Assembly (NCBI RefSeq): GCF_002119405.1
Contig: NZ_MTBG01000034.1
Coordinates: forward strand, 1-32,032
Length of the DNA: 32,032 nucleotides
Direction of reading: 5' to 3'
Source: Pseudoruegeria sp. SK021
Lineage (GTDB): Bacteria > Pseudomonadota > Alphaproteobacteria > Rhodobacterales > Rhodobacteraceae
Shown here piece after piece: positions 1,210-31,096 of this stretch. The stretch's first letter is position 1, and every line of letters starts with the position of its first letter. Under the pieces are notes generated by a model. The model did no database searches. It worked only from the letters and a program-made list of their open reading frames with translations, and had not been told where the DNA came from. The position numbers were made by a program, and so were the translations under genes.

Positions 1210-1339
1210 GTCTGGCCCCGTAAGGGTCGACGATGCGCGCTGCTGGCGTTGAGGGCGTCAATAAAAAAAGAGGATTAAGATACGTCGTTCCCGTCAAAGT
1301 CCTTGTGGCTTCGTGCGTATCTTTTTGGGGAGGATGAAC

Positions 1340-2632
1340 ATGAATACGACCTTGATCGGTCGGCGCCGTTTGCTCGGTGCCGGGTTGGCTGCTGCTAGTC
1401 TGCCACTTTTTGATTTCGGCCCGGCAATGGCCCAGCAGCCAAACAGTATCCGCATGATGTGGTGGGGCGGCGACGAGCGCGCGCGCCGGACCAATGGAGC
1501 GATCGCACTTTTCAAGGAAGCCAATCCAGAAGTGACGATTGAGTCTGAATCGATGGGCTGGGATGATTACTGGGCGCGACTAGCGACGCAGGTCGCAGGG
1601 GGGAACGCGCCCGATTTCATTCAGATGGATTACCGCTATATGGTCGAATATGCGCGACGCGGCGCAATCCGCCCATTGGACGAGTACCTTGGCAAAGAAC
1701 TGCAGATCGCGGATTTCGGGCAGGTCAATCTTGATAGCTGCTCGGTAGACGGGAAGCTGTATGGCGGGAATGTCGGTATCAACGCCTTCGCGGTCTTCAG
1801 TGATAGTGCGGCATGGGAAGAAGCCGGGCTTGAGGCACCGTCCTATGACACGACATGGGATGAATTTTCAGCTAAATGCGCCGCCTTTACGGCTGGCAAT
1901 ACGCGCACCCGTATGCGCGCTACGGCGGACGGCAGCGGCCAAGAAGGCCTGTTCGAGGTTTGGCTGCGGACCCAGGGTAAGGCGCTGTTCCATCCTGATG
2001 GGACCCTAGGATATGACGCGGCGGATGCAGGACGCTGGTTTGCCTATTGGGCGGACCTGCGCAAATCCAAGGGCTGCGTGGCGGCAGACGTGCAGGCGCT
2101 TTACAAGAACTCGCCCGAGACCTCACCTCTTGTTGTGGGCCGTGCGGCAACCGATTTTGTCTGGTCCAATGGGTTTGAATCCTATCAGAAACTCGTCGCT
2201 GCCGAACTGTCTCTGGTGGGTGCACCTGTACTGGAAGGGGGCGAACCTGGCCAGTATCTGAAGCCGTCGCAGATGTTCTCGATCTCGGAGACGTCGGAAA
2301 GCCCTGTGCAGACGGCCAGATTGATCAACTTCCTGATCAATGAACCGGCTGGTGCTAAAATTCTGGGGCTTGATCGCGGGGTTCCGGCCTCGCCTAAAAT
2401 CCGTGAAGCGATCAAGCCCGATCTGAGCGAGGCGGGTCGGAAAGTGGTCGACTTCATCTCAAAGGTGACGCCCCAGGTCGGGCCGTTGCCGCCCTCGCCT
2501 CCTCAGGGCGCGGGTGAGGTCAATGCGCTTTTGATCCGCATCAGCCAAGAGGTCGGCTTCGACGTCAGCACGCCGGAACAAGGGGGCGTTAATCTCGTGG
2601 ATGAAGCCGCCGCGATCCTGAGGCGGACATAA
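1340..2632 (+). CDS. Sugar ABC transporter substrate-binding protein
   Basis: This 430-residue periplasmic binding protein is of the family-1 (maltose/glycerol-3-phosphate, CUT1) type. The N-terminus has a twin-arginine-like signal (RRRLLGAGLAAASLP) with a probable cut after AMA. The mature protein begins with a typical lobe (IRMMWWGGDERARRT) and includes ALFKEANPEVTIE. The start at 1340 is chosen because GGGGAGG at 1327-1333 gives 6-bp spacing; the ATG at 1334 abuts that site. Two permeases and an ATPase follow in the same direction, only 3 bp from the first permease. The ligand is likely a sugar or polyol, but the sequence does not say which. Confidence 0.92.
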   Translation: MNTTLIGRRRLLGAGLAAASLPLFDFGPAMAQQPNSIRMMWWGGDERARRTNGAIALFKEANPEVTIESESMGWDDYWARLATQVAGGNAPDFIQMDYRYMVEYARRGAIRPLDEYLGKELQIADFGQVNLDSCSVDGKLYGGNVGINAFAVFSDSAAWEEAGLEAPSYDTTWDEFSAKCAAFTAGNTRTRMRATADGSGQEGLFEVWLRTQGKALFHPDGTLGYDAADAGRWFAYWADLRKSKGCVAADVQALYKNSPETSPLVVGRAATDFVWSNGFESYQKLVAAELSLVGAPVLEGGEPGQYLKPSQMFSISETSESPVQTARLINFLINEPAGAKILGLDRGVPASPKIREAIKPDLSEAGRKVVDFISKVTPQVGPLPPSPPQGAGEVNALLIRISQEVGFDVSTPEQGGVNLVDEAAAILRRT

Positions 2633-2635
2633 GGC

Positions 2636-3583
2636 ATGGCAGCCCATAACACCGTCGCGACGAGCAACGCCCGCAAGCAGGTTGCGGCGGGCGGATGGCT
2701 CTGGGGTGCGGTCAGGCGCAATGGGGCTGGATACCTGTTCCTTGCGCCCTGGCTCATCGGCTTTTTCTGCCTGACACTGGGTCCGGCGCTGGTCTCACTT
2801 TACCTTTCGTTCACCAATTATGACCTGCTGACCACGCCTGAATTCGTTGGCATGCAAAACTATGTCCGCATGGCCACCGCTGATCCGAAATTCATTGCGT
2901 CAATTCGGGTGACCCTACTTTATGTAGCGCTGTCCGTGCCGCTTAAGCTGGCATTTGCGCTGGCGGTGGCAATGGTGCTTAATCGGGGGATGCGCGGTTT
3001 GCCGTTTTATAGGGCGATCTTTTACCTGCCGTCGCTATTGGGCACCTCTGTCGCCATCGCGGTGTTGTGGCGACAGCTCTTCGCCGCAGACGGCATGGTC
3101 AACAGCCTGCTGGCACAGTTCGGGGTCGAGGGGCCAAGCTGGATCTCCAACCCCAATTACTCGCTTTACACGCTGGTCGTGTTGTCTGTCTGGCAGTTCG
3201 GATCGCCCATGATCATCTTTCTGGCCGGACTTCGCCAGATCCCGGTCGACATGTACGAGGCGGCAAGTCTGGATGGCGCATCGCCCGCACGGCAGTTTTT
3301 CCGCATCACGTTGCCGCTTCTGTCACCGGTAATTTTCTTCAACGTCGTGATCCAAACTATTGAAGCGTTCAAGGCCTTCACGCCCGCCTTCATTATCTCG
3401 GGCGGCTCGGGCGGACCGATCAACTCGACCCTGTTTTACACGCTCTACCTGTATCAGGAGGCGTTCAGCTATTTCCGCATGGGCTATGCCTCGGCGCTTG
3501 CCTGGGTGTTGGTGGTCCTTATCGCGGTCTTTACCGCTTTCTCCTTCCTGACCACAAAATATTGGGTGCATTACGATGACTGA
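2636..3583 (+). CDS. Sugar ABC transporter permease (MalF/UgpA type)
   Basis: This 315-residue inner-membrane protein has about six hydrophobic segments, beginning with YLFLAPWLIGFFCLTLGPAL. The EAA loop that docks onto the ATPase is visible as EAASLDGASPARQFFRITLP in the last third. It belongs to the binding-protein-dependent transport permease family. It starts 3 bp after the binding-protein gene and overlaps the next permease by 8 bp, so the genes are translationally linked. Its partner is the MalG-type permease at 3576. Confidence 0.92.
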   Translation: MAAHNTVATSNARKQVAAGGWLWGAVRRNGAGYLFLAPWLIGFFCLTLGPALVSLYLSFTNYDLLTTPEFVGMQNYVRMATADPKFIASIRVTLLYVALSVPLKLAFALAVAMVLNRGMRGLPFYRAIFYLPSLLGTSVAIAVLWRQLFAADGMVNSLLAQFGVEGPSWISNPNYSLYTLVVLSVWQFGSPMIIFLAGLRQIPVDMYEAASLDGASPARQFFRITLPLLSPVIFFNVVIQTIEAFKAFTPAFIISGGSGGPINSTLFYTLYLYQEAFSYFRMGYASALAWVLVVLIAVFTAFSFLTTKYWVHYDD

Positions 3584-4451
3584 CGCTGTGCACGAAGTAC
3601 CGGGTCGCGCCTCAACCCATCCCCGCCTGACGGGCACAGTGCGCCATGTGCTGCTGATCGCGATCTCGTTTGTGATGATCTATCCGATCCTGTGGATGCT
3701 GTCGGGGTCGCTGCGCCCCGCCGACGAATTGTTCGGAGGCGATGCGGGGCTGATGCCGTCACAGGTCACGCTCCAAGCCTATAGCGACGGCTGGTTCGGA
3801 CTACAGGTCACGTTCGGACGGTTTTTTGCCAATTCGCTAATTATCGCGGTACTGGCGACGGTGGGCAATGTGCTGGCGGCTTCTCTGGTGGCCTTCGCCT
3901 TCGCTAGGTTGAAGTTCTCTGGCCAGAAATTTTGGTTCGCGCTGATGCTGGGAACCTTGATGTTGCCCTATCATGTAACGCTGATCCCGCAATACGTGAT
4001 GTTTCGCAGCCTCGGCTGGGTGAACACATGGTGGCCATTGATCCTGCCCAAGTACTTTGCTGTGGATGCGTTCTTTATATTCCTGATGGTCCAGTTCTTC
4101 CGGGGCATCCCGCGCGAACTGGACGACGCGGCCCGGATGGACGGCTGCAGTCCGTGGCGGATCTATCGCAAGATCATCTTGCCACTGTCGATGCCGGTGC
4201 TGGCGACTGCCGCGATCTTTTCCTTCATCTGGACGTGGGAGGACTTTTTCGGACCGCTGATTTATATAAGCGAAATGAGCCAGTACACAGTCCAATTGGG
4301 CCTACGCTCGTTCATCGACTCAAGCGGCACGTCAAGTTGGAACGAGCTTTTCGCGATGTCGCTGCTGTCTTTGGTTCCGATCTTCCTGATCTTCCTATTC
4401 TTCCAACGGCTGCTCATTGAGGGCATCGCCACCACCGGCATGAAACGCTGA
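3576..4451 (+). CDS. Sugar ABC transporter permease (MalG/UgpE type)
   Basis: This 291-residue protein is the second permease of the heterodimer. It has six predicted membrane spans (the first near LLIAISFVMIYPILWMLSGS) and an EAA-type loop reading ELDDAARMDGCSPWRIYRKI. The C-terminal IEGIATTGMKR is a typical MalG-family ending. Its start lies inside the end of the preceding permease gene. A 70-bp gap then separates it from the ATPase gene. Confidence 0.92.
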   Translation: MTDAVHEVPGRASTHPRLTGTVRHVLLIAISFVMIYPILWMLSGSLRPADELFGGDAGLMPSQVTLQAYSDGWFGLQVTFGRFFANSLIIAVLATVGNVLAASLVAFAFARLKFSGQKFWFALMLGTLMLPYHVTLIPQYVMFRSLGWVNTWWPLILPKYFAVDAFFIFLMVQFFRGIPRELDDAARMDGCSPWRIYRKIILPLSMPVLATAAIFSFIWTWEDFFGPLIYISEMSQYTVQLGLRSFIDSSGTSSWNELFAMSLLSLVPIFLIFLFFQRLLIEGIATTGMKR

Positions 4452-4527
4452 CTCATTTGGCCAGCCTGATGCTTTGCCCTGATCATAGTGGCAAGGGATC
4501 GGACGGCCCTGAAATCCGGAAATGCGA

Positions 4528-5604
4528 ATGGCAACCACTATACAACTTAACAAAATTGAAAAGCGCTATGAGGCGCATATTGTGATTCCTGGGATCGATC
4601 TGGAAATCAAACCGGGGGCATTCACGGTTTTCGTTGGCCCTTCGGGCTGCGGAAAATCAACACTTTTGAGGATGATCGCGGGACTTGAGTCGATTTCGGG
4701 CGGAGAACTGATGATCGATGGCGTCCGGGTGAATGATGTCGCTGCCGCGAAGCGGGGCATCGCCATGGTCTTTCAGTCATATGCGCTTTACCCGCACATG
4801 AGTGTTTACAAAAACCTCGCCTTTGGGTTGGAGACGGCGGGCTATAAGCGCGACGAGATCGACCGCCGCGTCCGCGCTGCGGCAGAGACGCTGCAAATCA
4901 AAGATTACCTCCCGCGAAAGCCCAAGGCGTTGTCCGGCGGCCAGCGTCAGCGCGTGGCCATCGGGCGCTCAATCGTCCGTGATCCCAAGATTTTCCTGTT
5001 CGATGAGCCACTTTCAAACCTTGATGCCGAGCTACGGGTGCAAATGCGGGTCGAAATTACCAAGCTGCACGAGCGGTTGGGCAACACAATGATTTATGTG
5101 ACCCACGATCAGGTCGAGGCGATGACGATGGCCGATCAGATCGTCGTTCTTCGTGCCGGCCAAGTGATGCAGGCCGGCTCTCCGCTGGAACTGTACAATG
5201 CGCCCGTCGATCAGTTTGTCGCGGGGTTCATCGGATCGCCCAAAATGAACTTCGTGCCCGTGCAAATTGCCGATGCGACAGGGGTTTTGCTTGACGGGCA
5301 ACGGATCGAAACCGGGCAAGTACTCGAAGGCCCGGTGGGTACGCCACTGACAATGGGTATCCGTCCCGAGCATATTTCGGTCTCCGACGGGACGGGCCAG
5401 GCCATCGGCGAGGCCCGTGTCGAACTGGTGGAACATCTGGGCGTTAGCACCGTCTTACATGCCCGCCTAGCCGTCGGCGCTGAGACACTGATCGTCGTGC
5501 TTCCCGGCCAACAACCCTGCCGCAGTGGCGATGTCGTTTCACTTAGAACCGATCCGGGCTTGTGTCATTTATTTGCTGCTGACGGTCGGGCGCTGCGCAA
5601 CTGA
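4528..5604 (+). CDS. Sugar ABC transporter ATPase (UgpC/MsmK type)
   Basis: This 358-residue protein energises the importer. Walker A is GPSGCGKST at residues 37-45, the signature is LSGGQRQR near 135, Walker B is FLFDEPLSNLD near 155, and the switch is THDQVEA. A C-terminal TOBE/regulatory region of about 120 residues marks it as a CUT1-type ATPase. I placed the start at 4528, since the GGA ribosome site at 4518-4520 is 7 bp away. The ATG at 4522 in the same frame is the alternative. It probably serves the two permeases just upstream. Confidence 0.92.
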   Translation: MATTIQLNKIEKRYEAHIVIPGIDLEIKPGAFTVFVGPSGCGKSTLLRMIAGLESISGGELMIDGVRVNDVAAAKRGIAMVFQSYALYPHMSVYKNLAFGLETAGYKRDEIDRRVRAAAETLQIKDYLPRKPKALSGGQRQRVAIGRSIVRDPKIFLFDEPLSNLDAELRVQMRVEITKLHERLGNTMIYVTHDQVEAMTMADQIVVLRAGQVMQAGSPLELYNAPVDQFVAGFIGSPKMNFVPVQIADATGVLLDGQRIETGQVLEGPVGTPLTMGIRPEHISVSDGTGQAIGEARVELVEHLGVSTVLHARLAVGAETLIVVLPGQQPCRSGDVVSLRTDPGLCHLFAADGRALRN

Positions 5605-5720
5605 TCCCACACATCCCGATCATCTACCAAATTCTAGACATCGACCCCCTCATGGGTCGGCCAGAGCAGTATGTCCAGCCGACAACTCACCCCGGCCAGA
5701 CACGACAACAGGAGAATGAG

Positions 5721-7001
5721 ATGCGCAAGAAATACGCACTTGTGGGAACCGGTTCCCGCGCCCGCATGTTCTATGAGGCGATCGCCAAAAACTATCGCGA
5801 TAACGCTGAGCTAGTGGCGCTGTGCGACACCAATCAGACCCGGATGGATTATACCAACAAACTGCTCGGGGATGACTTCCAGATCGGGCCTTTGCCCACC
5901 TATAAGGCCGGAGATTTCGGCAAGATGCTCGACGATACCGGCGCGGATGTGGTGATCGTCACATCGATCGACCGAACCCATCATATCTATATAATTGCCG
6001 CCCTTGAGGCCGGTCGCGATGTCATCACCGAAAAGCCAATGACGACCGATGCCACCAAGTGCCAGCAGATCATTGATGCGGTCGAACGCACAGGGCGTTC
6101 GGTGCGAGTCACCTTCAACTACCGCTACGCCCCACATAATGCGGCCGTCCACGAGCTGATTTTGTCCGGGGCGATCGGGGATGTCTACTCGGTACACTTC
6201 GAATGGCTTCTGGATACCAAGCACGGTGCCGACTATTTCCGCCGCTGGCACCGCGACAAGCGGAATAGTGGCGGGCTGATGGTGCATAAATCGACACACC
6301 ATTTTGATCTGGTGAACTTCTGGCTGCAAAGCCAGCCCGAGACCGTCTTTGGCATGGGAGATCTGCGCTTTTATGGCCGTGCCAACGCCGAAGAGCGGGG
6401 CCTGTTCACTCCCTATACCCGCACGACCGGCGTTACCGCGGCCAAGGATGATCCGTTCGCGATCGACATGACCAAAAGCCCCGTGCAGAAAGCCTTGTAT
6501 TTAGATGCAGAGCATGAAGACGGCTATCAGCGCGATCAGAACGTCTTTGGCGACGGCGTCAGCATCGAGGATACGATGCAGGTCATGGTGCGCTATTGCA
6601 ACCGCGCCGTCATGACCTATTCGCTGAACGCGTATGCGCCGTGGGAAGGCTTCAACGTTAGCTTCAACGGATCGGGAGGCCGGATCGAGTTGATGGTGCG
6701 CGAGACCTCGTACATTAACGGCGGTGGCGCCTTGGATCAAGAGGGCGCGGCAGAAGGCATCCAGCTGTACTATTTCCCGCTTGATGCCGCCGCGCAAGTA
6801 ATGCCCGTGGATATGGCCGAGGGCGGGCATGGTGGCGGGGACAACCGGATGCTGGACGATATCTTCGGCAAATCCAATCCCGGCGGAGCCTATGCCGCCG
6901 GCTATCGTGACGGAGCAATGTCGATTCTGACCGGGATTGCGGCAAACCGCTCGTTCCAGACCGGCCTGCCGGTTCAGGTCTCGGATCTGGTTCGTCTTTA
7001 A
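5721..7001 (+). CDS. Gfo/Idh/MocA-family oxidoreductase
   Basis: This 426-residue NAD(P)-dependent dehydrogenase is of the glucose-fructose oxidoreductase / inositol dehydrogenase superfamily. The N-terminal Rossmann motif is VGTGSRAR (residues 8-15). The conserved EKP is at 104-106, and the catalytic-region segment is HKSTHHFD near 189-196. Family members oxidise sugars, polyols or their derivatives. The start at 5721 has an AGGAG site 6 bp upstream. It follows the ATPase by about 115 bp and is probably co-transcribed, so the imported compound is likely oxidised by it. The exact substrate is not deducible. Confidence 0.9.
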   Translation: MRKKYALVGTGSRARMFYEAIAKNYRDNAELVALCDTNQTRMDYTNKLLGDDFQIGPLPTYKAGDFGKMLDDTGADVVIVTSIDRTHHIYIIAALEAGRDVITEKPMTTDATKCQQIIDAVERTGRSVRVTFNYRYAPHNAAVHELILSGAIGDVYSVHFEWLLDTKHGADYFRRWHRDKRNSGGLMVHKSTHHFDLVNFWLQSQPETVFGMGDLRFYGRANAEERGLFTPYTRTTGVTAAKDDPFAIDMTKSPVQKALYLDAEHEDGYQRDQNVFGDGVSIEDTMQVMVRYCNRAVMTYSLNAYAPWEGFNVSFNGSGGRIELMVRETSYINGGGALDQEGAAEGIQLYYFPLDAAAQVMPVDMAEGGHGGGDNRMLDDIFGKSNPGGAYAAGYRDGAMSILTGIAANRSFQTGLPVQVSDLVRL

Positions 7002-7347: not shown

Positions 7348-8373
7348 ATGAACTGGAAAACCGGATGGAGCGTTGCGGCGCTGGGATTGGCGCTTGGCAG
7401 TGGTGCCTTGGCGCAAGACTACTCAGGCAAGACATTGGTTGTTGGGACTTGGGGCGGAGACATTGAACGGCTTCTGCGCGAACACGCTGCAGGACCCTTG
7501 GAAGAACTAACCGGTGCAAAGGTTGAGTTTCTTTTGGGCGGTTCGGGGGACCGGATGGCAAAGATGTATGCCGAAAAGTCGAACCCGACCATGGATGTGA
7601 CCTTTCAGAATGTCTATGAGGCGCCACAGGCCCTGTCGGATGGGTTGGTCGTGGCCCCGGACGAATCCTCGGCGATCTATGGGGATTTGTGGCCGGGTAT
7701 GAACGATGGTTGCTATGCCATGTCACTGGTCGGCCTTGGAATTGCCTACAACAAGGGCATGGTAACGGAACCCGTGGAATGGGCGGATATGTGGAAGCCC
7801 GAATACAGGGGCATGATCGCAATGGCCCCCTACCCAAGCTCCGAAGGCGATGGGCTGCTGGGGGTTGCCGCGCGGCTGGTGGGCAGTGACGAGCACGATC
7901 CTGACGCCGCCTTCGCCAAGGTCAGCGAACTGGGTGCACCGGCTTTGAACTATACCTCATTGGATGAAGTTTTCGCCCTAATGGATGCGGGCGAGGTGGC
8001 GATGGCTCCGATGATCTCGGGCTATGTGCTGGCCGCTTTGAAGGAATGGGACAATATCGGGTTCGCGTTCCCGACCGATCCCGGTCCGGTACTTGTGCGA
8101 GATATGGTTTGTCAGGTCGCCAATTCTCCGAACCCGGAATTGGCGCAGATGTTTATTGAACTGGCGCTCAGCCCGGCGACGCAGCAAGCCTATGCTGAGG
8201 AATTGCTATTCGGCCCGACCAATTCCAAAGCTGAACTTAGCCATGACGCCGCCGCCGACACCATCAATACCCCCGAGGAGGTGGCATCGCTTTTGCAGCT
8301 GGATTGGCCCTATGTCATCTCGCAGCGTGCCGATTGGACTGAGCGCTGGAACAAGGATGTTCTAGGCCAGTGA
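7348..8373 (+). CDS. PotD-like ABC transporter substrate-binding protein
   Basis: This 341-residue periplasmic protein belongs to the spermidine/putrescine (PotD/PotF) and iron-type binding-protein group. The signal peptide runs to about residue 22, cutting after GALA. The mature start YSGKTLVVGTWGGDIERLL is typical of the family. The start at 7348 fits the signal peptide and has AGAGG upstream at a long 11-bp spacing. It is followed by two permeases and an ATPase. Family members bind polyamines, opines or other small charged compounds. The ligand is not clear here. Confidence 0.88.
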   Translation: MNWKTGWSVAALGLALGSGALAQDYSGKTLVVGTWGGDIERLLREHAAGPLEELTGAKVEFLLGGSGDRMAKMYAEKSNPTMDVTFQNVYEAPQALSDGLVVAPDESSAIYGDLWPGMNDGCYAMSLVGLGIAYNKGMVTEPVEWADMWKPEYRGMIAMAPYPSSEGDGLLGVAARLVGSDEHDPDAAFAKVSELGAPALNYTSLDEVFALMDAGEVAMAPMISGYVLAALKEWDNIGFAFPTDPGPVLVRDMVCQVANSPNPELAQMFIELALSPATQQAYAEELLFGPTNSKAELSHDAAADTINTPEEVASLLQLDWPYVISQRADWTERWNKDVLGQ

Positions 8374-8407
8374 TCGACGAATTCGTGTCAACAGGCGGGG
8401 TCGTGGC

Positions 8408-9259
8408 ATGATCGGGCGCGGCCCTGCCCATTTGCTGGTGGCACCGGGGCTGGCGCTGGTGGCGTTCGTGTTTCTGGCACCGTTTCTGCTGCTGGTTGCT
8501 ATGAGTTTTTGGTCGCAACCCGAGGGCTCGCTTTTGGTGGACACAACCCTGACCTTCAAAAACTACATTCGGATCTTTTCGGATGCTTATTACCTTCGCG
8601 GCCTCGGTCGGACGCTATGGTTAAGTGTGGCGACTGTGGCGTTGGCATTGGTTTTGGGGTTCCCGGTGGCCTTTTGGATCGTGCGCCGCGCCGGGCGCTT
8701 GCGGCGCTTTGTGACGGCACTGATGCTCTTGCCGATGGTGTGCGGCGCGCTCTTGCCAACGCTGGGGCTGGTGAACCTTCTATCGCCGCTTGGGATCATC
8801 AACGGCACGCTGAAGACTATGGGGCTGATCGACCGGGCCATTCCGCTTTTGGGGACTCAGATCGGCATCTTGATTGGGCTGGTGCAAGCCTTTCTCCCGT
8901 TGATGGTTTTGCCATTGGTTGCCGTGCTAGACCGCCTACCACCAAGCTTTGAGGAGGCGGCCATGTCTTTAGGCGCGCGTCCGGCTCAGGTCTGGCAGCG
9001 GGTTGTCCTTCCGTTGGCCGCTCCAGGGGTATTGGCAGGGGCAGTGCTGGTGTTCTGCGCTGCGCTGACATCGTTTGTGACCCCCCAAATTCTGGGACAA
9101 GGAAAGATCGCCACCTTCGCCACGATGACTTGGCAACAGGCCAGCTTGGTGCTGGACTGGCCGTTCGCCTCGGCCCTTGCGATGGTCATGCTAGGCTTGA
9201 TGGCGGGTCTGGGCGGACTTTTGGCCGTGTTGCGCCGGGCGAATTGGGCACAAACATGA
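8408..9259 (+). CDS. PotB-like ABC transporter permease
   Basis: This 283-residue inner-membrane permease has about six spans. The EAA loop (FEEAAMSLGARPAQVWQRVV) is near residue 180. It starts 34 bp after the binding-protein gene. Its stop overlaps the start of the next permease (ATGA), which indicates translational coupling. Together with the PotC-like protein it forms the membrane channel of the second importer. Confidence 0.9.
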   Translation: MIGRGPAHLLVAPGLALVAFVFLAPFLLLVAMSFWSQPEGSLLVDTTLTFKNYIRIFSDAYYLRGLGRTLWLSVATVALALVLGFPVAFWIVRRAGRLRRFVTALMLLPMVCGALLPTLGLVNLLSPLGIINGTLKTMGLIDRAIPLLGTQIGILIGLVQAFLPLMVLPLVAVLDRLPPSFEEAAMSLGARPAQVWQRVVLPLAAPGVLAGAVLVFCAALTSFVTPQILGQGKIATFATMTWQQASLVLDWPFASALAMVMLGLMAGLGGLLAVLRRANWAQT

Positions 9260-10035
9260 GACGCATTATTTTGTCGGGTTTCACAGCATTTGTCGTTCTG
9301 TTCACGGTCGCGCCTCTGCTGGTGCTGGTGTTTTCAAGCTTTGATGACGGCAAGTTTTTCCGCTTCCCGCCACGCGAGTTGTCGTTGCGGTGGTTTCGTG
9401 CGGCCTTTGCCAGCGCCGAGTATCGCAGTTCCCTGTTCAACAGTACCGTGGTGGGACTGTTGGCTACGGTGATTTCGGTCACGCTTGGGACAGCCGCGGC
9501 ACTGGGACTGCAGCGTGGGGTTCTAAAAACGCGCGCGTCGCTTGAGATGGTGCTGCTGGCCCCGTTGACCCTTCCTCTGGTGATCTGGGCGATTGCGCTA
9601 TTGCAGATCTATGCGTGGCTTGGAATTGGCGGCACGCTGTCGGGGCTGGTTTTGGCCCACGCCACCTTTACTCTGCCGTTTTCGGTGCGGGTGATGTTGG
9701 CGACGTTATCGTCCATTGATCCGGGGCTTGAACTGGCCGCACGGTCCCTTGGCGCCCGGCCTTGGAGGGCGTTCGCCCGTGTTACCTTGCCGTTGGCTTT
9801 GCCCGGTCTGGCGACCTCAGTTGCCTTGTCATTCTTCATCTCGTTCAACGATGTGATCGTGTCCACCTTTATCGCCGGGTCCAGTTGGATGACCTTCCCT
9901 GTGCGGTTGTATTCGCAACTGCGCGGCCAAGGGATCGACCCGACCACTCTTGCCATCGGAACCATGGTGATCTGCTCAATCCTGAGCGTCGTCATCCTGA
10001 CCGAAATTTTCAGCAGAAAGGCCTTGCGGACATGA
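9256..10035 (+). CDS. PotC-like ABC transporter permease
   Basis: This 259-residue permease starts at an ATG overlapping the previous stop by 4 bp. Its EAA-type loop reads LELAARSLGARPWRAFARVT. The N-terminal segment (IILSGFTAFVVLFTVAPLLV) and the segment FISFNDVIVSTFIAG are typical of PotC/PotI proteins. Its own stop overlaps the ATPase start by 4 bp. It completes the permease pair of the second importer. Confidence 0.9.
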   Translation: MRRIILSGFTAFVVLFTVAPLLVLVFSSFDDGKFFRFPPRELSLRWFRAAFASAEYRSSLFNSTVVGLLATVISVTLGTAAALGLQRGVLKTRASLEMVLLAPLTLPLVIWAIALLQIYAWLGIGGTLSGLVLAHATFTLPFSVRVMLATLSSIDPGLELAARSLGARPWRAFARVTLPLALPGLATSVALSFFISFNDVIVSTFIAGSSWMTFPVRLYSQLRGQGIDPTTLAIGTMVICSILSVVILTEIFSRKALRT

Positions 10036-11144
10036 CCGCCTATCTGACGATCAGGGATGTAGCCAAAAGCTATGGCCGCTCGACCGCTTTGCACTGCATC
10101 GACATGGACATCGCCCGAGGCGAATTCTTGGCGCTTCTGGGCCCGTCTGGGTCGGGCAAGACGACGCTGCTGCGCATCCTTGCAGGGCTGCTTGATCCCG
10201 GTCGTGGCACTCTGATTCTGGATGGAGTCGACATGACCAAAACGCCAGCTTGGGAGCGTGACATCGGTCTTGTCTTCCAGAATTATGCGTTATTTCCCCA
10301 TATGGATGTGCGCCAGAACGTCGGTTTCGGTCTGGATATGCGCGGCATTCGGGGCGCAGAGGCCGAACGGCGGATTGATGAGGCATTGGAGACCGTGTCC
10401 ATGCGCGAGTATGGGACCCGCCGTCCGGGCGAACTCTCGGGTGGTCAACAGCAACGCATTGCCATTGCCCGTGCTATTGCCATTAAGCCGCGTTTGCTGT
10501 TGCTGGACGAGCCGTTGTCGAACCTTGACGCCGTGTTGCGCCAGTCTGTTCGGATCGAGTTGCGCGAGTTGCACGAACGCACCGGGCTGACCACGATCAT
10601 GGTCACGCATGATCAGGTCGAGGCACTGACCCTCGCGGACCGCGTGGCACTGATGGAGCGGGGCGAGGTGATTCAGGTCGACCGCCCAGAAGACTTGTAC
10701 AACCGTCCGGCATCCGCGTTTGCGGCGGCGTTTCTCGGCAGCCCCCCGGCCAATCTCTTGCCGGTTGCGCCGGGAAATGCGCCCGGGACGGTCAGCATCT
10801 CTGGAGTGGTCTGGACCCCGGTGGGGCAGGTGGCACAAGCGGTGGCGGCACTTCGTGGTCCCGCCCGTTTGGCCCTGCGCCCCGAAACCCTTCGCCTAGT
10901 GGCCCAAGAGGTGCCGGGCGCCATTTCCGGGCGCTTGAAAGCGGTAGAATACATGGGTGGCGAACGGCTTGCTCATGTGGAACTTACTGGCGCCGATGCT
11001 CCGGCCCCGGTTGTGCTGGTGCGAAGCGCCGATGCGCTGCCCGAGACGGGGCAGGTGGTCTTTGTCCTGCCCGGGGCGGTGACTGGCCTTTACGACAACG
11101 AAAGCGGCGCCAATATCGCGCCCGCGACTGCAGGAGAATACTGA
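10032..11144 (+). CDS. PotA-like ABC transporter ATPase
   Basis: This 370-residue ATPase has Walker A GPSGSGKTT (residues 37-45), signature LSGGQQQRIAIARA, Walker B LLLLDEPLSNLD and switch THDQVEA. A C-terminal TOBE domain follows, as in PotA-type proteins. The start overlaps the PotC-like stop by 4 bp. Its stop shares one base with the start of the next gene (TGATG), which ties that unusual downstream protein to the transporter. Confidence 0.92.
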   Translation: MTAYLTIRDVAKSYGRSTALHCIDMDIARGEFLALLGPSGSGKTTLLRILAGLLDPGRGTLILDGVDMTKTPAWERDIGLVFQNYALFPHMDVRQNVGFGLDMRGIRGAEAERRIDEALETVSMREYGTRRPGELSGGQQQRIAIARAIAIKPRLLLLDEPLSNLDAVLRQSVRIELRELHERTGLTTIMVTHDQVEALTLADRVALMERGEVIQVDRPEDLYNRPASAFAAAFLGSPPANLLPVAPGNAPGTVSISGVVWTPVGQVAQAVAALRGPARLALRPETLRLVAQEVPGAISGRLKAVEYMGGERLAHVELTGADAPAPVVLVRSADALPETGQVVFVLPGAVTGLYDNESGANIAPATAGEY

Positions 11145-11926
11145 TGTGGAGCAATGCTGAAACCTGGGCGAAACGCAGCCCGGCGAAACAGGAATTACGC
11201 GAAGAAATCTGGGGCTTGCTGGAACGAACCGGTGTCGCGATCGGCCCGGCATTTGGAAATATTCCCAACTTTTCGGGGGCCGATATGGCGGCATTCCATA
11301 TCTCGTTAACGCCGGAATGGCAGGCGGCGCAGACCGTGAAGTGCAACCCTGATGCGCCCCAAATCCCCATTCGCTTAAGGGCCCTTTATGCGGGCAAAGT
11401 GCTGTATGTTCCGGTGCCAGCCCTCACACGGGATTTCCCCTATCTGCGGCTTGACCCCGTTAAGCTCGTTGAAACAGGCGTCAGCTTTGAATTGGCGGCG
11501 ACCGCTGAAGGCTATATGATGCATGGCGAACGGATCGAGTTCGAAGACGTTCCCGCTCTGGACTTCTGCATTCTTGGGTCTGTCGCTGTATCGCGCGAAG
11601 GGGGACGCACTGGCAAAGGCGCGGGCTTCGCGGATCTGGAGGCCGGTATCTTTCGCGACCTTGGCACTGTCCAACCTGACACGCCGGTCGTGACGTTGGT
11701 ACATTCCTCGCAACTGGTCGAGTCTGATCGAGTGCCGATGATGGCCCATGACAGCCCGCTATCCATGATCGCGACCGAGGCCGAACTGATCCGGACCCCG
11801 CCCGCTACTACGATCCCTGGTGGGGTCGATTGGGAGATGGTGCAGCCCGATCAGTTCCGCGACATCCCCTTCTTGGCCAAGCTGCGCGACCGATTGCTGG
11901 CCAAGGATACCGGGGGTGCAGCATGA
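11144..11926 (+). CDS. 5-formyltetrahydrofolate cyclo-ligase-like (MTHFS-domain) protein
   Basis: This 260-residue protein resembles the MTHFS-domain family. The C-terminal half has the nucleotide-binding glycine loop RTGKGAGFADLEAG, the counterpart of the cyclo-ligase G-rich loop. A conserved basic/proline N-terminal region comes before it. Classical members convert 5-formyl-THF to methenyl-THF with ATP. MTHFS-domain relatives such as this are largely uncharacterised, so an ATP-dependent step on the imported compound is only a guess. Its start overlaps the ATPase stop by 1 bp, with CAGGAGA as ribosome site. The last 76 bp overlap the convergent LacI gene. Confidence 0.75.
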   Translation: MWSNAETWAKRSPAKQELREEIWGLLERTGVAIGPAFGNIPNFSGADMAAFHISLTPEWQAAQTVKCNPDAPQIPIRLRALYAGKVLYVPVPALTRDFPYLRLDPVKLVETGVSFELAATAEGYMMHGERIEFEDVPALDFCILGSVAVSREGGRTGKGAGFADLEAGIFRDLGTVQPDTPVVTLVHSSQLVESDRVPMMAHDSPLSMIATEAELIRTPPATTIPGGVDWEMVQPDQFRDIPFLAKLRDRLLAKDTGGAA

Positions 11927-12897
11927 GGCGCGGTTGTCGCCCGCTCCACAAGGCTGACTGGCAAAACAATGGTGTGGGGCGGGGACGTGTCGCCGCCGAT
12001 GCGCTGGATCAACAAATCAACCGCGCTTCGCCCGAGGTCGATCAGAGATTGACGGACGGTGGTCAGCCCGATGAGAGGCCAAGCGCTCATTCCGATGTCA
12101 TCAAATCCGATCACCGAGACTTCGCCGGGGACGTCAATGCCAAGGTCGCGCAGGGCAGACAGCGCACCGATTGCCACCAGATCGTTGACGCAAACCACCA
12201 GCGACACGTCGCGCTGCGCCATGCGCCGCTTTGCGTCCGGACCAAGGGTCGCCGTCAGGGGAACAGTTTCTTCCCAGACCACATCGCAGAAACCAGCTGC
12301 CGCCTTAAGGAAACCCCGCCGTCGTTCGCGGCTGGAGGCGATGTCGTCTCCGCCCGACAACAGGCCGATGCGGCGGTGCCCGAGCGTGCGGATATACTCC
12401 GCGATCAGCCGACCACCGTCAGCATGAGCGGCCTGAATGCAGTCGTGACCGGGCAGGGGGCCGTCGATCGTGACCACCGGGAAACGCGGTTGACCGCCGA
12501 TGGTTTCAAATTCCGGATGCAGCACCGCGACTGCGCCATCAACCCCGTGATCAGCCAGCATGCGCAATGCTTCGGCCTCGCGGCGCGGGGTGTCGCCCGA
12601 ATTGATCAGCAGCGTTGCCAGACCACGGCTTTCGGCATGGCTTTGAACCGCTTCAGCGATCTCGGGGAAGATCGGGCTGACCAGCGTGGGCAGGATGCAG
12701 CCAATCACGTTGTGGCGCCCGGTCTTCAGCGACACGGCGGCGCGGTTGCGGGCATAGCCCAAATCCTGTGCGGCGCTTCGTACCAGACGATCAACCTCGG
12801 GCGTGACTTTGCCAAGATCGTTCATCACGTAAGATACGGTGGCCGAAGAAACCCCCGCCGCCTTTGCCACATCCCGGATCGTGACGCGTTTCTTCAT
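11851..12897 (-). CDS. LacI-family transcriptional repressor
   Basis: This 348-residue regulator has the LacI helix-turn-helix and hinge at the N-terminus (VTIRDVAKAAGVSSATVSYV). A periplasmic-binding-like effector domain follows (IGCILPTLVSPIFPEIAEAV; VIGFDDIGMSAWPLIGLTTV). I chose ATG at 12897; a GTG at 12909 is possible, and the ribosome site is not decisive. The conserved domain ends about 25 residues before the stop. That extra tail overlaps the convergent MTHFS-like gene by 76 bp. It sits between the transport operon and the divergent glycohydrolase gene, so it likely represses one or both in response to the transported compound or a product. Confidence 0.9.
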   Translation of the reverse strand: MKKRVTIRDVAKAAGVSSATVSYVMNDLGKVTPEVDRLVRSAAQDLGYARNRAAVSLKTGRHNVIGCILPTLVSPIFPEIAEAVQSHAESRGLATLLINSGDTPRREAEALRMLADHGVDGAVAVLHPEFETIGGQPRFPVVTIDGPLPGHDCIQAAHADGGRLIAEYIRTLGHRRIGLLSGGDDIASSRERRRGFLKAAAGFCDVVWEETVPLTATLGPDAKRRMAQRDVSLVVCVNDLVAIGALSALRDLGIDVPGEVSVIGFDDIGMSAWPLIGLTTVRQSLIDLGRSAVDLLIQRIGGDTSPPHTIVLPVSLVERATTAPHAAPPVSLASNRSRSLAKKGMSRN

Positions 12898-12980
12898 GCC
12901 ACCTACCACTTGTTGCGCAGTCCGATCTTAGGCCCGCTTGTTATGAGAATGCTAGCCTTTGCACCGATGCGAGGTGCGGT
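12898..12980. promoter_or_regulatory. Divergent LacI / glycohydrolase promoter region
   Basis: This 83-bp gap must hold both start regions. Arms GCACC (12961-12965) and GGTGC (12973-12977) form a small inverted repeat that includes the GAGGT ribosome site of the downstream gene. It could be an operator or a translation-masking hairpin. No clear match to the 7156 operator candidate was found. Confidence 0.35.
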
Positions 12981-14366
12981 ATGAGAGCGGCCCAGCATAC
13001 CGCACATTTGTTGCGCGAGACCGCCCCGAAATTACGCGCGGAGGAAGATCAGACATGGGATGCGTCGCAACTGATGCGGCATCAAGGCGCCGAGCTGATG
13101 CAGTTCTGGGCGTCGAATGCGCCCGGCTCTGGCGCACCAGAATGCCTGATGGCGGGTGCGTTGCAATCATTAGAAAACAAAGGGTTTATCCTAGGGGACT
13201 ATGGGCAGTTGCTTCGGCAGGGACTTGCCGCTGCAACGGACGGTGACATCGAGGCACTGCTGCGTATTGATATGCAGCTGCGGGTGCTGATGCGCGAAGC
13301 CCATCCAGATCCAGACCACCCGTCGCAACTGACCTCCCGGTTTTCGGACTGGGACAGCTTTGCCGCAGAAGTCATTTGGCCCGACGATCTGGTGATTGAC
13401 GCGGTCATTCTGCCGGACCGGATCCGGGCTGGATGGCTGGGGCAATTGGTCGGGGCGGCTGCGGGCACCGCGCTTGAAGGCTACACCGCCGAGCAAATTG
13501 CCAAAGCCTTTGGACCCGTCACCACATATTTGCGGACCCCCAACACCTATAATGACGACATTACTTTTGAGTTGGCCTTTCTTGAGGCCTATCTGGATCA
13601 CGGGCCAGCTGTGACGTCTCGCGATATCGCGGCCAATTGGGTCGGGATGATCCCGCTGGGCTGGTCCGCCGAAGGCGTGGCATTGGACCACCTGCGTCGG
13701 GGGGTGATGCCGCCGCTGTCGGGCAGTCTCAACAACCCCTTCGATGAGTGGATTGGCGCCCAGATGCGCGGCGCGATTTGCGGAATGGTGGTTCCCGGAC
13801 GTGCGAAAGAGGCCGCGCGCCTTGCGTGGTTGGATGCCGAGATCAGCCATGCGGGCAACGGAATATTGGGCGAAGTGTTCAATGCGGTGCTCTGCGCCTT
13901 GGCCTTCGCCCCCGGAGATTTGCGCGACCTTCTGGCGCGCACGGTCACCATGATTCCTGAAACAACGGAATACGGGCAGGTGATCCGCCATGCCCTGCTG
14001 TCCTGCCGGGCTGGGCCAGATTGGCAAACGGCTTGGGCCGCTTGCGATAGCTTATATCTGGATTATAACTGGATACATGCATATCCTAACGCTGCAGCTC
14101 AGGTGATTGCGCTGTGGTTCGGGGACGATGATTTCGACCGGACATTGGAAATCCTCTGTGGCCTTGGCCATGATGTGGACTGCAACGCGGCGCAGATGCT
14201 TTGCGTATTGGGTCTGCGTTATGGCAGCGGCGTGATTGATGCACGCTGGAGCGACCCGTTGCTGGCTGGCGATATCGTCACCTATATGCGTCGGCCACAA
14301 ACCCTGTCTTTTGATCGATTGGTCCGCAAAACCCTCGATGCTATTGCCCGAAGCCGTTCCAGCTAA
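12981..14366 (+). CDS. ADP-ribosylglycohydrolase-family protein
   Basis: This 461-residue protein has a C-terminal ADP-ribosylglycohydrolase (DraG/ARH) domain from about residue 147. Landmarks are GWLGQLVGAAAGTALEG, then N191-D192-D193 (the usual S/T-D-D metal site), EISHAGNGILGEVF, and GHDVDCNAAQ with D398 and D400 (usual DTDT). Both aspartate pairs that bind the two metals are kept, so catalysis is plausible. Family enzymes cut N- or O-glycosidic bonds to ribose. Residues 1-145 form an extension I do not recognise. The start has GAGGT 6 bp upstream. It is divergent from LacI, suggesting joint control with the PotABCD-like operon. The true substrate is unknown. Confidence 0.85.
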   Translation: MRAAQHTAHLLRETAPKLRAEEDQTWDASQLMRHQGAELMQFWASNAPGSGAPECLMAGALQSLENKGFILGDYGQLLRQGLAAATDGDIEALLRIDMQLRVLMREAHPDPDHPSQLTSRFSDWDSFAAEVIWPDDLVIDAVILPDRIRAGWLGQLVGAAAGTALEGYTAEQIAKAFGPVTTYLRTPNTYNDDITFELAFLEAYLDHGPAVTSRDIAANWVGMIPLGWSAEGVALDHLRRGVMPPLSGSLNNPFDEWIGAQMRGAICGMVVPGRAKEAARLAWLDAEISHAGNGILGEVFNAVLCALAFAPGDLRDLLARTVTMIPETTEYGQVIRHALLSCRAGPDWQTAWAACDSLYLDYNWIHAYPNAAAQVIALWFGDDDFDRTLEILCGLGHDVDCNAAQMLCVLGLRYGSGVIDARWSDPLLAGDIVTYMRRPQTLSFDRLVRKTLDAIARSRSS

Positions 14367-14533: not shown

Positions 14534-15126
14534 GGACTCTGTTGCGCAAATTAGCTGACGAACGGTTCTCCCCTTTCCCGAGACGGATTTGTCCCACGGC
14601 TGTCGTGACAGGGATGCCAAGGGCGGTGTAGCCGTTCAGGATCGCAATGCGCACCTGAACCTCAGCGACTTGGCGGTCAAAGTCGCGCGCCATCAGCCGC
14701 TAACCGAGCAGTTTCATGCAATGCATCTTTGTCTCGACGCGGCTCCGGCGGTGGTATCCGCTCCAGTTTCGCCAGAGCGCCCGACCCAGTTGTCTTAATG
14801 CGCGCAATGCATCGTTCCTGGCGATGGCTCCGGCGGTGGTTGGTTTGCATGGCTGGGCATTTCGGCGTGGCGGGATGACCGCGTCCGCACCGCGGTCTGC
14901 AATGGCGTTGTGGCATCGGCGCGTGTCGTCGGCACCATCGGCAGTCACGCTGCCGATCTCCTGATTGCGCGGGATCTGGTTGAGCAGACAGGGCAACATC
15001 GGTGCATCCCCTGTGTTGCTGCCGGTGATCTCAACCGCTCTGACTTCCAACGTTTGCGCGTCTATAGCGATGTGGATCTTGCGCCAGACGCGTCGCTTGG
15101 GGGTAACCGCTCCATTGAGGCCGCGG
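14534..15126 (-). pseudogene. IS5-family transposase remnant
   Basis: The minus strand encodes the C-terminal two thirds of an IS5-family transposase: KRRVWRKIHIAID, then the DDE-region GSVTADGADDTRRCH, then RSRVETKMHCMKLLG. A TAG at 14700-14702 interrupts the frame where relatives usually have glutamine. The same frame continues beyond it as RLMARDFDRQVAEVQVRIAI and ends near VTTAVG. The 5' part is missing, replaced by the end of the IS66 gene. The terminal repeat GGACTCTGTTGCGCAAA starts at 14534. It is inactive. Confidence 0.8.
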
Positions 15127-15902
15127 TTATGCAGCTTGGCTGTTCTGCATGGCCATCGGCGTCCAATTCCATGGGAGTAATTCATCCAGCCGGTTAATTT
15201 TGTGATCGAGGATGTCAGCGAGATAGGCTTGCGGATCAAGGCCATTCAGCTTGGCTGTTTCAATGATAGTCATGGCGCGTGCGAGTGTTTCCGCACCGGT
15301 GTCAGCCCCGGCAAACAGCCAGTTCTTTCTTCCAATGCCGATGGGGCGCAGAGCGCGTTCAGCCGGATTATTGTCGATGGCCACACGACCGTCTGTCAGG
15401 AACAAGCTGAAGGCCTCCGCGCGATTGAGGCCATAGCGGAAGGCCTTGGCCAAATTGCTCTTGCCCGGAATGCGCAGGAGTTGCTGCTCGGACCACGCAA
15501 AGAAGGCCTCAACTTTTGGCTGGCTGAATTTTTGACGTGCCGCGTGACGGACGTCAGCAGGCTGGCCGCTCGCCATTGTGCTTAAACCAATGGCGCACAT
15601 TGGCTCGCTGTCGCGCTCGATGTCATAGAGTTTGCCGATCCGGTCGAGCGTCTCGCGGGCGATCTCGGACTTGGTGGATGTCCAGACATCGTGGAAGTCA
15701 CGGCGCAGGTGCGCCCAGCACGCCGCCTCGCGTAAACGGGGGGTGCCGTCCGGCTCTGGCTCATAGAGCTTGGCATAGCCTTTGTAACCGTCGGCCTGAA
15801 GGATGCCGCGGGCGTCGGCCAGATGGGTCAAGACATGCTCCTCCTTCCAGTCCGGTGCGAACCGATAGACGGCCCCGGGCGGGGATGATCCAGCCCAGGG
15901 GC

Positions 15903-15944
15903 GTTCGCCATTGGTCTCGAACATATGGCGACACAACGGCTCAC
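15903..15944 (-). repeat. 42-bp palindromic repeat, copy A, inside tnpC
   Basis: This copy is 36/42 identical to copy B at 16031-16072, and all six differences are transitions. It interrupts the IS66 TnpC motif between VR and RPWAGS. Arms 3-9/23-29 of the repeat (TCGCCAT/ATGGCGA) are identical in both copies. The outer 5-11/32-38 stem keeps pairing through a compensatory change (C10-G33 in B, T10-A33 in A). Confidence 0.7.
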
Positions 15945-16030
15945 TCGCGCACATAGGCCCAGATCCGGCCTTGTCTGACGCCTTTGCCAAGCCCCTTGTC
16001 GCGCAATGACCGGTCCAGCACACGGATCGG

Positions 16031-16072
16031 GTTCGCCATCGGTCTCGAACGCATGGCGACGCGATGGCTCAC
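16031..16072 (-). repeat. 42-bp palindromic repeat, copy B, inside tnpC
   Basis: This copy interrupts the IS66 TnpC motif between HAD and PIRVLDRS, where relatives have two codons (DT). It has perfect outer arms GCCATCG/CGATGGC and inner arms TCGCCAT/ATGGCGA, which are alternative hairpins. The two copies lie 86 bp apart in the same gene, with normal TnpC sequence between them. Confidence 0.7.
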
Positions 16073-16493
16073 CGTCTGCGTGCAGCAGATCGCTGCCCAT
16101 GATGTCAGATTCGATCCGTTCGATTAGCGGCGACAGGGTCTTCATGGCCCGTCCGCACCAACCGACAAGCGTGGTCTCGGGAATGTCCGCGCCCATGCGG
16201 GCAAAGATCTCGTGCTGGCGATACAAGGGAAGATGATCGTCGAACTTCGAGACCAGAACATGGGCCAGCAGGTTCGGCCCGGCCATGCTGCCCGGGATGG
16301 GACGGCTGGGAGCCGGCTCCTGCACGATCCGCTCGCAGCGGCGGCAGGACTTCTTAATCCGGGCGATCTGGATCACCTTCATCTGCGCGGCGATCATGTC
16401 GAGCAGTTCGCTGACATCCTCACCCACTACGCGCAGATCACCACCGCAGTCCGGGCAGCAGGCACCGGGGTCCAGTTCGCGGCGTTCGCGCGG

Positions 16494-16601
16494 CGTCGCA
16501 TCCGAGACCCCTTCTTCTTGCGACAACTGTCGCACAGGGAGGTTATTCGGCGGCAGCATCCGCTTCAGGACGGCCGCCTTACGTTCCGGTGAGTATCCCA
16601 A
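16494..16601 (-). pseudogene. Transposase OrfA fragment fused to IS66 remnant
   Basis: About 36 residues (YSPERKAAVLKRMLPP, then REEGVSDAT-type helix-turn-helix, here SQEEGVSDAT) match the start of an OrfA-type transposase of a different element. After DAT the frame passes directly into the IS66 TnpC sequence, so this is a recombination or insertion scar. A TTG at 16601 is the only possible start in frame. It is not expected to function. Confidence 0.6.
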
Positions 16602-16681
16602 ATCATCGTCCTATCCCGCCCACCTGAAAAATAGAGAAAAATCGAGCAGCAGACAACTTCCCTGACTGTGAGTGTGGTACT

Positions 16682-16858
16682 GCGGCGTGATGGTCTGACC
16701 CATTCCCTGAATGACTTCGTGTCTTCCCTGTGACCTGTCGACCATCACGCTGCCCCGGCGGCGGGCGAGATGTGACCTAATAGGAGCCTGACGGTACGTA
16801 CCTTCACAGTCCTGTCCTCTTCGAACGGTGCCCGGGCCATTTCAGTGAGGGAGCCTCC
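16682..16858 (+). ncRNA. Candidate IS110 bridge RNA region
   Basis: In IS110-group elements the 5' non-coding end encodes a bridge RNA with target- and donor-binding loops. Here a 14-bp stem (16682-16695 with 16740-16753; one G-T pair, eleven consecutive perfect pairs) encloses a 44-nt loop. A perfect palindrome GGTACGTACC lies at 16793-16802 and GCCCGGGC near 16830. The size and place match known bridge RNAs, but exact ends and guide bases are not determined. Confidence 0.45.
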
Positions 16859-17902
16859 ATGGACCAGATTATCATCGGCGTTGACACCCACAAATCCAAA
16901 CACATTGCTGTTGCGATCAGTCGTCAGGGCGCTCGTCTGGGTACCATGACACTCCCCACGACCCGCCAAGGATATCGCGATCTGGAAGTATGGGCATCAG
17001 AGCTCGGCACCTCCAAAGCATTTGGTATCGAGGGCACTGGGGCCTACGGCGCAGGCTTGTCTCGCGACCTGCTCGCCAAGGGGTATACGGTTCTGGACGT
17101 CATGCGCCCAAATCGCCAGCTGCGCTATCTTCACGGTAAGTCAGACAGCCTTGACGCGGAAAGCGCGGCCCGGTCAGTGTTGAACGGGCAAGCCACCGCC
17201 CTTGCCAAAACGCAAGCTGGAGCGTCAGAAATGATCCGGCATCTCAAGATTGCGCGCGACAGTGCGGTGAAGGCCAGGTCGCAAGCGATTATCACCTTGA
17301 AAACACTGATCATTAATGCTCCTGCCGAGCTGCGCGAGATGCTGGAGCTGATCAAGGGCCCGATCAAACTGATCCGTCACATCGCAGCACTCAGACCAGG
17401 AAAAATCGTATCGCCAACCGCTTCCGCTAAGGCAGCGATGCGCGCAATTGCCCGGCGCTGGCTGCTCTTGCACGAAGAAATCCACGCACACGATCAAGAA
17501 CTCGAACCAATGGTCAGAGAGAAGGCACCCGGTCTGATGAACACGTATGGCGTTGGCGTCATGACAGCGGCCGAAATGCTGATCGTCGTTGGCGATAACC
17601 CCGAGCGGATCAAATCCGAAGCAGCTCTGGCCAAACTCTGCGGGGTTTGCCCGATCCCGGCTTCAAGCGGCAAAACCAACCGAATGCGTCTGAACCGCGG
17701 TGGGAACCGGCAAGCCAATGCCGCCCTCTACATCGTCGCCATCACCCGAATGCGGGATCATGAAGTCACACAAAACTATGTGCTCAAACGTACCGCTCAA
17801 GGCAAAAGCAAGCGCGAGATCACGCGGTGCCTGAAGCGCTATATCATCCGCGAAATCTACCGCGAGCTCTGTGCGCCAAACGACGCAAAATGCGCGCCTT
17901 GA
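16859..17902 (+). CDS. IS110-family transposase (bridge-RNA recombinase)
   Basis: This 347-residue protein has the RuvC-like DEDD site (D9 in GVDTHK, E58 in GIEGTG, D96 and D99 in SDSLDA). Its C-terminal Tnp domain carries the serine-bearing CPIPASSGK segment (S269/S270) followed by NRGGNRQANAALY. Both catalytic parts look complete, and no frameshift or stop is seen, unlike its IS neighbours. It catalyses insertion by a serine recombinase-like route guided by bridge RNA. The start has a GAGGGAG site upstream. The short 3' flank places it in the IS110 rather than the IS1111 group, which is an inference. Confidence 0.9.
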   Translation: MDQIIIGVDTHKSKHIAVAISRQGARLGTMTLPTTRQGYRDLEVWASELGTSKAFGIEGTGAYGAGLSRDLLAKGYTVLDVMRPNRQLRYLHGKSDSLDAESAARSVLNGQATALAKTQAGASEMIRHLKIARDSAVKARSQAIITLKTLIINAPAELREMLELIKGPIKLIRHIAALRPGKIVSPTASAKAAMRAIARRWLLLHEEIHAHDQELEPMVREKAPGLMNTYGVGVMTAAEMLIVVGDNPERIKSEAALAKLCGVCPIPASSGKTNRMRLNRGGNRQANAALYIVAITRMRDHEVTQNYVLKRTAQGKSKREITRCLKRYIIREIYRELCAPNDAKCAP

Positions 17903-23681: not shown

Positions 23682-23713
23682 AAACACTCTTTCTTTGCGG
23701 GGACCGCATCGCG

Positions 23714-23740: not shown

Positions 23741-23791
23741 TGAAGGCTGCGGGACCCCGTGAGGAAGGCCCTTTATCGGACGCACCAAGCC

Positions 23792-31095: not shown

Positions 31096-31096
31096 T

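Follow-up and report, generated by a model that had tools for sequence, protein, structure and literature searches.

A candidate LacI-linked uptake and salvage unit joining an ABC importer, an MTHFS-like protein and an ADP-ribosylglycohydrolase-family protein in Pseudoruegeria sp. SK021

A seven-gene block and its predicted operator

We analysed a stretch of DNA of 32,032 bases from Pseudoruegeria sp. SK021 (the window), which is an entire contig (G000:C34) of the 3.97-Mb host genome G000 (completeness 100%), and within it a block of seven genes (Table 1). Genes for the substrate-binding protein (SBP), two permeases and ATPase of an ATP-binding cassette (ABC) importer are followed on the same strand by a gene for an MTHFS-like protein, and next to these lie genes for a LacI-family regulator and for a protein of the ADP-ribosylglycohydrolase (ARH) family. 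The gene set and the tight junctions proposed in the original prediction, which was made from the letters of the DNA alone, were confirmed: the five genes from the SBP to the MTHFS-like protein are joined by a 34-base gap and then by overlaps of 4, 4 and 1 bases. The lacI and ARH genes are divergent, as had also been described, with 71 bases between their starts, and we refine this layout in that lacI is convergent with the importer operon, its 3′ end sharing 76 bases with the MTHFS-like gene. Genes were called by a simple codon-score script and not by a published tool.

The block occurs in identical order in four other genomes at 71–93% protein identity, making five genomes with the host: Citreicella sp. 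C3M06 (L034), an alphaproteobacterial metagenome-assembled genome (L035), Tropicimonas sediminicola (L036, in which the SBP gene is cut by the contig end) and genome G146 (L066). In all five loci lacI and the MTHFS-like gene converge. The genes flanking the block vary among loci, with the exception of L036, where two gene families from the right-hand part of the window (clusters 26 and 27) are also present. This comparison indicates that the seven genes are kept together as a unit and not by accident, and the parts of the block probably work together.

A palindromic site with a central CG, TWTAAACGTTTAAA, lies 5′ of the importer in the window (as TGTAATCGTTTAAA), L034 and L035. A matrix trained on these three sites found, among loci outside the training set, in L066 a full-score site 5′ of the importer and in L064 one of lower score (15.0) 5′ of a BMP-type importer, so that the candidate operator is present in four of four block copies with upstream DNA (window, L034, L035 and L066). 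Across 151 scanned loci (1.50 Mb), which overlap in part and are not independent, scores of at least 15 were reached in none but these four and L064. With up to one mismatch, the pattern has a single occurrence in the whole host genome (reversed-pattern control, 0), and a related pattern with up to two mismatches matched once within the window against 0.07 expected, at least one match being found in 6 of 100 shuffles. The LacI recognition helix is similar across six proteins. A LacI-type site is predicted to lie ahead of the importer operon, and the proposal that the parts of the block belong together is supported by this site and by the recurrence of the block in five genomes.

Table 1. Positions of the block genes and of the candidate operator in the window
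Feature	Position	Strand	Match or remark
SBP, SBP_bac_8 type, periplasmic	7348..8373	+	PF13416 70.5 bits (cut-off 27)
ABC permease 1 (BPD_transp_1)	8408..9259	+	PF00528 37.3 bits
ABC permease 2 (BPD_transp_1)	9256..10035	+	PF00528 64.3 bits
ABC ATPase with TOBE_2	10032..11144	+	ABC_tran 130.6 bits; TOBE_2 31.2
MTHFS-like protein	11144..11926	+	PF01812 65.5 bits (cut-off 27)
LacI-family regulator	11851..12909	-	kept in L034, L035, L036, L066
ARH-family protein, 145-residue N-terminal extension	12981..14366	+	PF03747 143.3 bits (cut-off 26.2)
Predicted LacI operator, core TGTAATCGTTTAAA	7154..7171	+	about 180 bases 5′ of the SBP start

The importer, the MTHFS-like protein and the ARH-family protein

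The description of the importer as PotABCD-like holds for its gene content but not for its SBP, which scored 24.4 bits against the PotD model NF007048 (cut-off 582) and 58.8 bits against PhnS, its top-scoring model (cut-off 395.3). By these curated cut-offs the SBP is neither PotD nor PhnS, and no clear assignment of it to a known substrate emerged that would speak against the original prediction. The permeases and the ATPase gave their top scores against Pot, Phn and Ugp models, all far below cut-off. In a single phmmer alignment with pneumococcal PotD (4eqb), the SBP carries P, S, L and R at the positions of D168, E171, W255 and D257 of E. coli PotD, which we take to be polyamine ligands. 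We rejected polyamine or phosphonate import on the grounds that the curated models were missed, and widely, and that the PotD residues are not kept; an importer of this kind with incidental neighbours, to which the best-scoring models would point, is very unlikely, all the more so as incidental neighbours fail to explain conservation in five genomes. Among remote SBP relatives (26–35% identity), the SBP gene has amidase genes beside it in three of five annotated regions (L071, L154 and L155; not L153 or L156).

The MTHFS-like protein scored 20.9 bits against the equivalog TIGR02727 for 5-formyltetrahydrofolate cyclo-ligase (5-FCL; cut-off 84.9), and four relatives scored 16.5–30.0 bits. It carries GRTGKGAGFADLE at the site where the true 5-FCL of the genome has ARLGYGKGHYDR; its loop, GKGAGFADLE, is kept in close relatives and departs from the GYGxGxYDR-type glycine-rich loop of 5-FCL, which reads GYGKGHYDR in that second PF01812 protein of the host (94.8 bits) and GYGGGYYDR in structure 2jcb. 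Searched against solved structures, the profile gave two weak matches, both in the 5-FCL family (E values 0.0011 and 0.0015). These comparisons indicate that the protein belongs to the PF01812 fold family but is not a true 5-FCL. We infer that it is a COG0212-type paralog of 5-FCL, since the 5-FCL models are missed and such a paralog was reportedly described by Pribat in 2011.

Close relatives of the MTHFS-like protein occupy 30 loci (group A, after removal of the duplicates L043 = L122 and L054 = L127), and importer genes lie within 5.5 kb in 27 of them (window type in 7, BMP type in 20); the others are L042 and L050, where the contig ends 56 and 559 bases away, and L048. Biuret/cyanurate-type genes, identified by curated models in L045, by Pfam for AtzD in L047 and elsewhere by similarity to those, are nearby in 16 of the 30 loci and in none of the seven window-type loci, and relatives 64–67% identical to the window protein lie within biuret/cyanurate operons. 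The L045 matches comprise formamidase (573 bits, cut-off 406), BiuH (418.6, cut-off 370), AtzE (710, cut-off 461), HpxZ (HpxZ/AtzH; 199, cut-off 135) and allophanate hydrolase (755.8, cut-off 511), and AtzD of L047 scored 448.4 bits. A second BiuH-like protein, at 246 of 370 bits and 49% identical to BiuH, is a putative TrtA as described in an excerpt of PMC7948467. In L045 (1234–13510), BMP-type importer genes are interleaved with those for formamidase, BiuH, the TrtA-like protein, AtzG/AtzE, the MTHFS-like protein, an AtzH-like protein and a divergent AtzF; L047 and L051 add AtzD to a similar set.

These operons, together with the amidase genes beside three of the five remote SBP relatives, would fit plain N catabolism of biuret, triuret or a cyanurate-like ureide, with the ARH-family protein as an accessory. 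We find this explanation distinctly unlikely for the window: its type of locus has no such genes nearby, a Pfam scan of the window found no BiuH, AtzE or allophanate hydrolase, and the SBP relatives are distant and their contexts mixed. The best host-genome scores for BiuH (53.9 of 370 bits) and allophanate hydrolase (AtzF; 178.1 of 511 bits) are both below cut-off, so the biuret route is incomplete in the host, and direct biuret catabolism there was rejected for the same reason.

A second MTHFS-like subfamily (group B: L052 7054–7791, L067, L068, L121 and L129–L137, with two copies in L135) has an NMT1/THI5-like binding protein encoded close by in 14 of 15 rows, and frequently also an ATPase, a permease and an RpiR regulator. 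This neighbourhood favours another explanation, thiamin-pyrimidine salvage, in which the importer would take up a precursor or degradation product of thiamin and the MTHFS-like protein would be the COG0212 thiamin-linked paralog; excerpts of two papers support the link, describing COG0212 as ‘not a 5-FCL; involved in thiamine salvage’ (PMC3223725) and listing it under ‘thiamin metabolism’ (PMC5041015). The L054 relative also adjoins a thiamin cluster, and the complete host genome lacks a match to ThiC, which is present in 13 of 14 controls. Absence of ThiC is common in this bacterial group, which counts against the explanation, as does the search for riboswitches: the window has no Rfam match above the gathering score, RF00059 (thiamin pyrophosphate, TPP) included, and in eight further loci the only TPP element, in L054, stands 5′ of the thiamin genes on the strand opposite the MTHFS-like operon; riboswitch control was rejected on these grounds. 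As thiamin salvage would, moreover, leave LacI, the ARH-family protein and the biuret-type operons unexplained, we hold it to be rather unlikely.

In a tree of 56 rows, with the root placed at the midpoint, the seven window-type rows form a single clade (100/96), which adjoins L048 (89/85) and is nested in an otherwise BMP-type group (93/95); rows with LysR and BMP genes fall on another branch. An ancestral BMP-type (PnrA-like) importer appears to have been replaced by the SBP_bac_8-type importer in the lineage of the window.

In the ARH-family protein, E166, D192, D193, D398 and D400, one Glu and four Asp that we take to be metal ligands, are invariant in 21 of 21 aligned relatives, and the adjoining positions 191, 194 and 401 are variable. 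The window group has 145–165 residues N-terminal to the ARH domain versus 0–39 in other relatives; this extension had no Pfam match at E values up to 1, and the ARH profile had no match among solved structures. On a plasmid of Rhizobium sp. ACO-34A (L064), a lacI gene (54% identical) diverges from genes for a BMP-type SBP (PF02608, 190.1 bits), an ATPase, two permeases and a full-length ARH-family protein 62% identical to that of the window. The Rhizobium ARH gene is the last of this operator-led run, and the plasmid is not among the seven plasmid records that match the MTHFS-like protein. Distant relatives (about 30% identity) occur with LacI and ABC genes in five of nine loci (L140, L141, L143, L144 and L145) and without them in L139, L142 and L146, the nine including L138, whose gene content was not read, and leaving out a copy in G488. 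Three plasmid loci (L065, L069 and L070) likewise combine a distant relative with LacI and ABC importer genes; of the 35 plasmid records that match ARH, 4 were viewed.

The full-length relative in Rhizobium sp. ACO-34A, whose gene accompanies those for LacI and a BMP-type importer, supports the view that the ARH-family protein is not merely incidental in the block, in keeping with the original prediction. The same placement, at the end of an importer run, argues against a DraG-like enzyme that strips ADP-ribose from a protein and thereby regulates the transporter or nitrogen metabolism. PF03747 membership would allow such a role, which is nevertheless extremely unlikely given also the distant relatives with LacI and importer genes; no ADP-ribosyltransferase was seen beside the ARH gene, although no genome-wide search was made.

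Matches to the ARH-family protein were found in 9 of 394 family genomes (2 of them full-length) and 4 of 385 class genomes, the host itself being the only genome of the class sample (1/385) with a full-length protein of the window subfamily. Matches to the MTHFS-like protein were found in 18 of the 394 (9 with at least 50% identity) and 15 of the 385 (3 with at least 50%). The co-occurrence of the two genes, suggested beforehand as a check, holds within one clade and fails in general, because they are side by side in only 2 of the 394 family genomes, precisely the two with the full-length ARH. Gene pairing is modular: LacI and ARH genes without the MTHFS-like gene, and the MTHFS-like gene without the ARH gene, mainly beside BMP-type importers, both occur.

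Proposed function

We propose, with roughly even confidence, that the block could serve, under LacI control, for the uptake and salvage of a small N-rich compound, most likely ureide- or nucleoside-like, and on that nature of the substrate taken by itself we see the chances as equally balanced. LacI would keep the importer operon repressed in the absence of the compound or of a product derived from it; the importer would carry the compound into the cell; the ARH-family enzyme would split an N-glycosidic bond where the compound bears a sugar; and the MTHFS-like enzyme would perform an ATP-driven step on an N-formyl, ureido or amide part. An N-rich small molecule is suggested by the BMP/PnrA-like importers, the biuret-type operons and the amidase genes near remote SBP relatives. 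PnrA binds purine nucleosides. The original prediction, in which the cell imports a ribosylated or nucleoside-like compound, cleaves it and applies an ATP step to the product under LacI control, is partly supported overall.

Several observations weigh against this proposal. LacI control is predicted at the importer and not at the ARH gene: the matrix found no operator in the LacI–ARH gap in any of five loci (best scores −3.8 to 6.8), so LacI control of the window ARH gene is unsupported. In two loci, L037 and L038, the importer and MTHFS-like genes are accompanied by a 2-oxoglutarate (2OG)-Fe(II) oxygenase gene instead of LacI and ARH, the contig start in L038 removing all importer genes except the ATPase. 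No importer adjoins the MTHFS-like gene in L048, and none is annotated near the relatives in Amycolatopsis (L055) and Halalkaliarchaeum (L056). In nine more distant rows (group C), the gene is adjoined by neither an SBP nor a permease of the types tested, and two rows show an isolated ATPase match, on the minus strand, the reference set comprising the three importer types met here, so that other types could escape; of the class-sample relatives at 35–40% identity, 9 of 11 were viewed with flanks (G772 and G621 left out). The nesting of the window-type clade has moderate supports (93/95, 89/85), the host scores for BiuH and AtzF stay below cut-off, and different importers need not share one substrate.

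A broader and quite improbable idea is that MTHFS-like (COG0212-type) proteins may be ATP-dependent enzymes for the N-formyl or ureido groups of imported N-heterocycles, for example re-closing or opening the ring adjacent to an N-formyl group, in the manner of 5-FCL with 5-formyl-tetrahydrofolate. They would act on a nucleoside that is damaged or whose ring has been opened, of the formamidopyrimidine, azacytidine or cyanurate riboside type, and in the clade of the window the ARH-family enzyme would remove the sugar and the MTHFS-like enzyme would treat the base. If true, this would give one reason for the meeting of these proteins with BMP-type (PnrA-like), NMT1-type and biuret-type systems.

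The block offers new clues to two widespread enzyme families. COG0212-type 5-FCL paralogs are common yet unexplained, and most ARH-family proteins encoded in transport operons lack a characterised function, as an excerpt of PMC10819704 states for yegTUV. Three importer types, biuret/cyanurate-type operons and one LacI operator make both families testable with a short list of ligands. In the open-access papers searched (subscription papers being outside the scope), ‘formyltetrahydrofolate cyclo-ligase’ and ‘biuret’ never appeared in one paper, and no paper joined ADP-ribosylglycohydrolase, LacI, ABC transporter and operon.

Surroundings of the block and comparison with known systems

Upstream of the block, a sugar-type ABC operon (1313–7001), which includes genes for a MalK/UgpC-like ATPase and a Gfo/Idh/MocA oxidoreductase, lies next to a LysR gene on the opposite strand (139–1116). 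We rejected this operon as a member of the unit and treat it as separate because it was not found 5′ of the block in L034, L035 or L066. Directly 3′ of the ARH gene lie transposase genes (14700–17902), of which DDE_Tnp_1 (14700–15245) and IS66 (15127–16023) overlap each other on the minus strand and are followed by IS110 (16859–17902). A polysaccharide-type region (19114–31837) holds a tyrosine-kinase-like gene and genes for an RTX/beta-helix protein, nucleotidyl transferases, a DegT aminotransferase, a sugar transferase and an export protein, as well as a GDP-mannose-dehydratase-like gene; two of its gene families are found again beside the block in L036. The 2OG-Fe(II) oxygenase gene stands 3′ of the MTHFS-like gene in L037 (10780–11733) and L038 (1685–2638), its family also occurs 5′ of the BMP operon in L040, L045 and L049, and its best PDB sequence match is an ethylene/succinate-forming enzyme.

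Among known systems, the window recalls E. coli yegTUV with its regulator YegW/GgaR, in which a nucleoside-type transporter, an ARH-family protein and a sugar kinase stand under one single-target repressor; according to an excerpt of PMC10819704, the function of the three genes is unclear and the reported effector is ADP-glucose. That system has an MFS symporter, a kinase and a GntR regulator where the window has an ABC importer, an MTHFS-like gene and LacI. LacI, an ABC importer and ARH in one run, as in the window, are found in an Agrobacterium operon (L069), which has LacI, a sugar-type ABC importer, two ARH genes and a ribokinase, and in a Nitratireductor operon (L070), which is similar but without the kinase. 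In both, the ARH-family proteins share no more than about 30% identity with that of the window and lack its N-terminal extension, the importer is another one and the MTHFS-like gene is absent from the region.

The MTHFS-like protein resembles the COG0212-type paralog in being a 5-FCL-family protein that misses the 5-FCL models and lies near transport genes, and differs in that it is accompanied here by ARH and LacI, or lies within biuret-type operons, and not only beside thiamin genes. Operons for cyanuric acid, biuret and triuret (AtzD, AtzG, AtzE, AtzH, AtzF, BiuH and TrtA) contain its close relatives, whereas the window is without their enzymes and the host falls short of the BiuH and AtzF cut-offs. 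Finally, the importer shares with PotABCD an SBP, two permeases and a TOBE ATPase, but its SBP misses the PotD cut-off and has changed residues at the presumed ligand positions.

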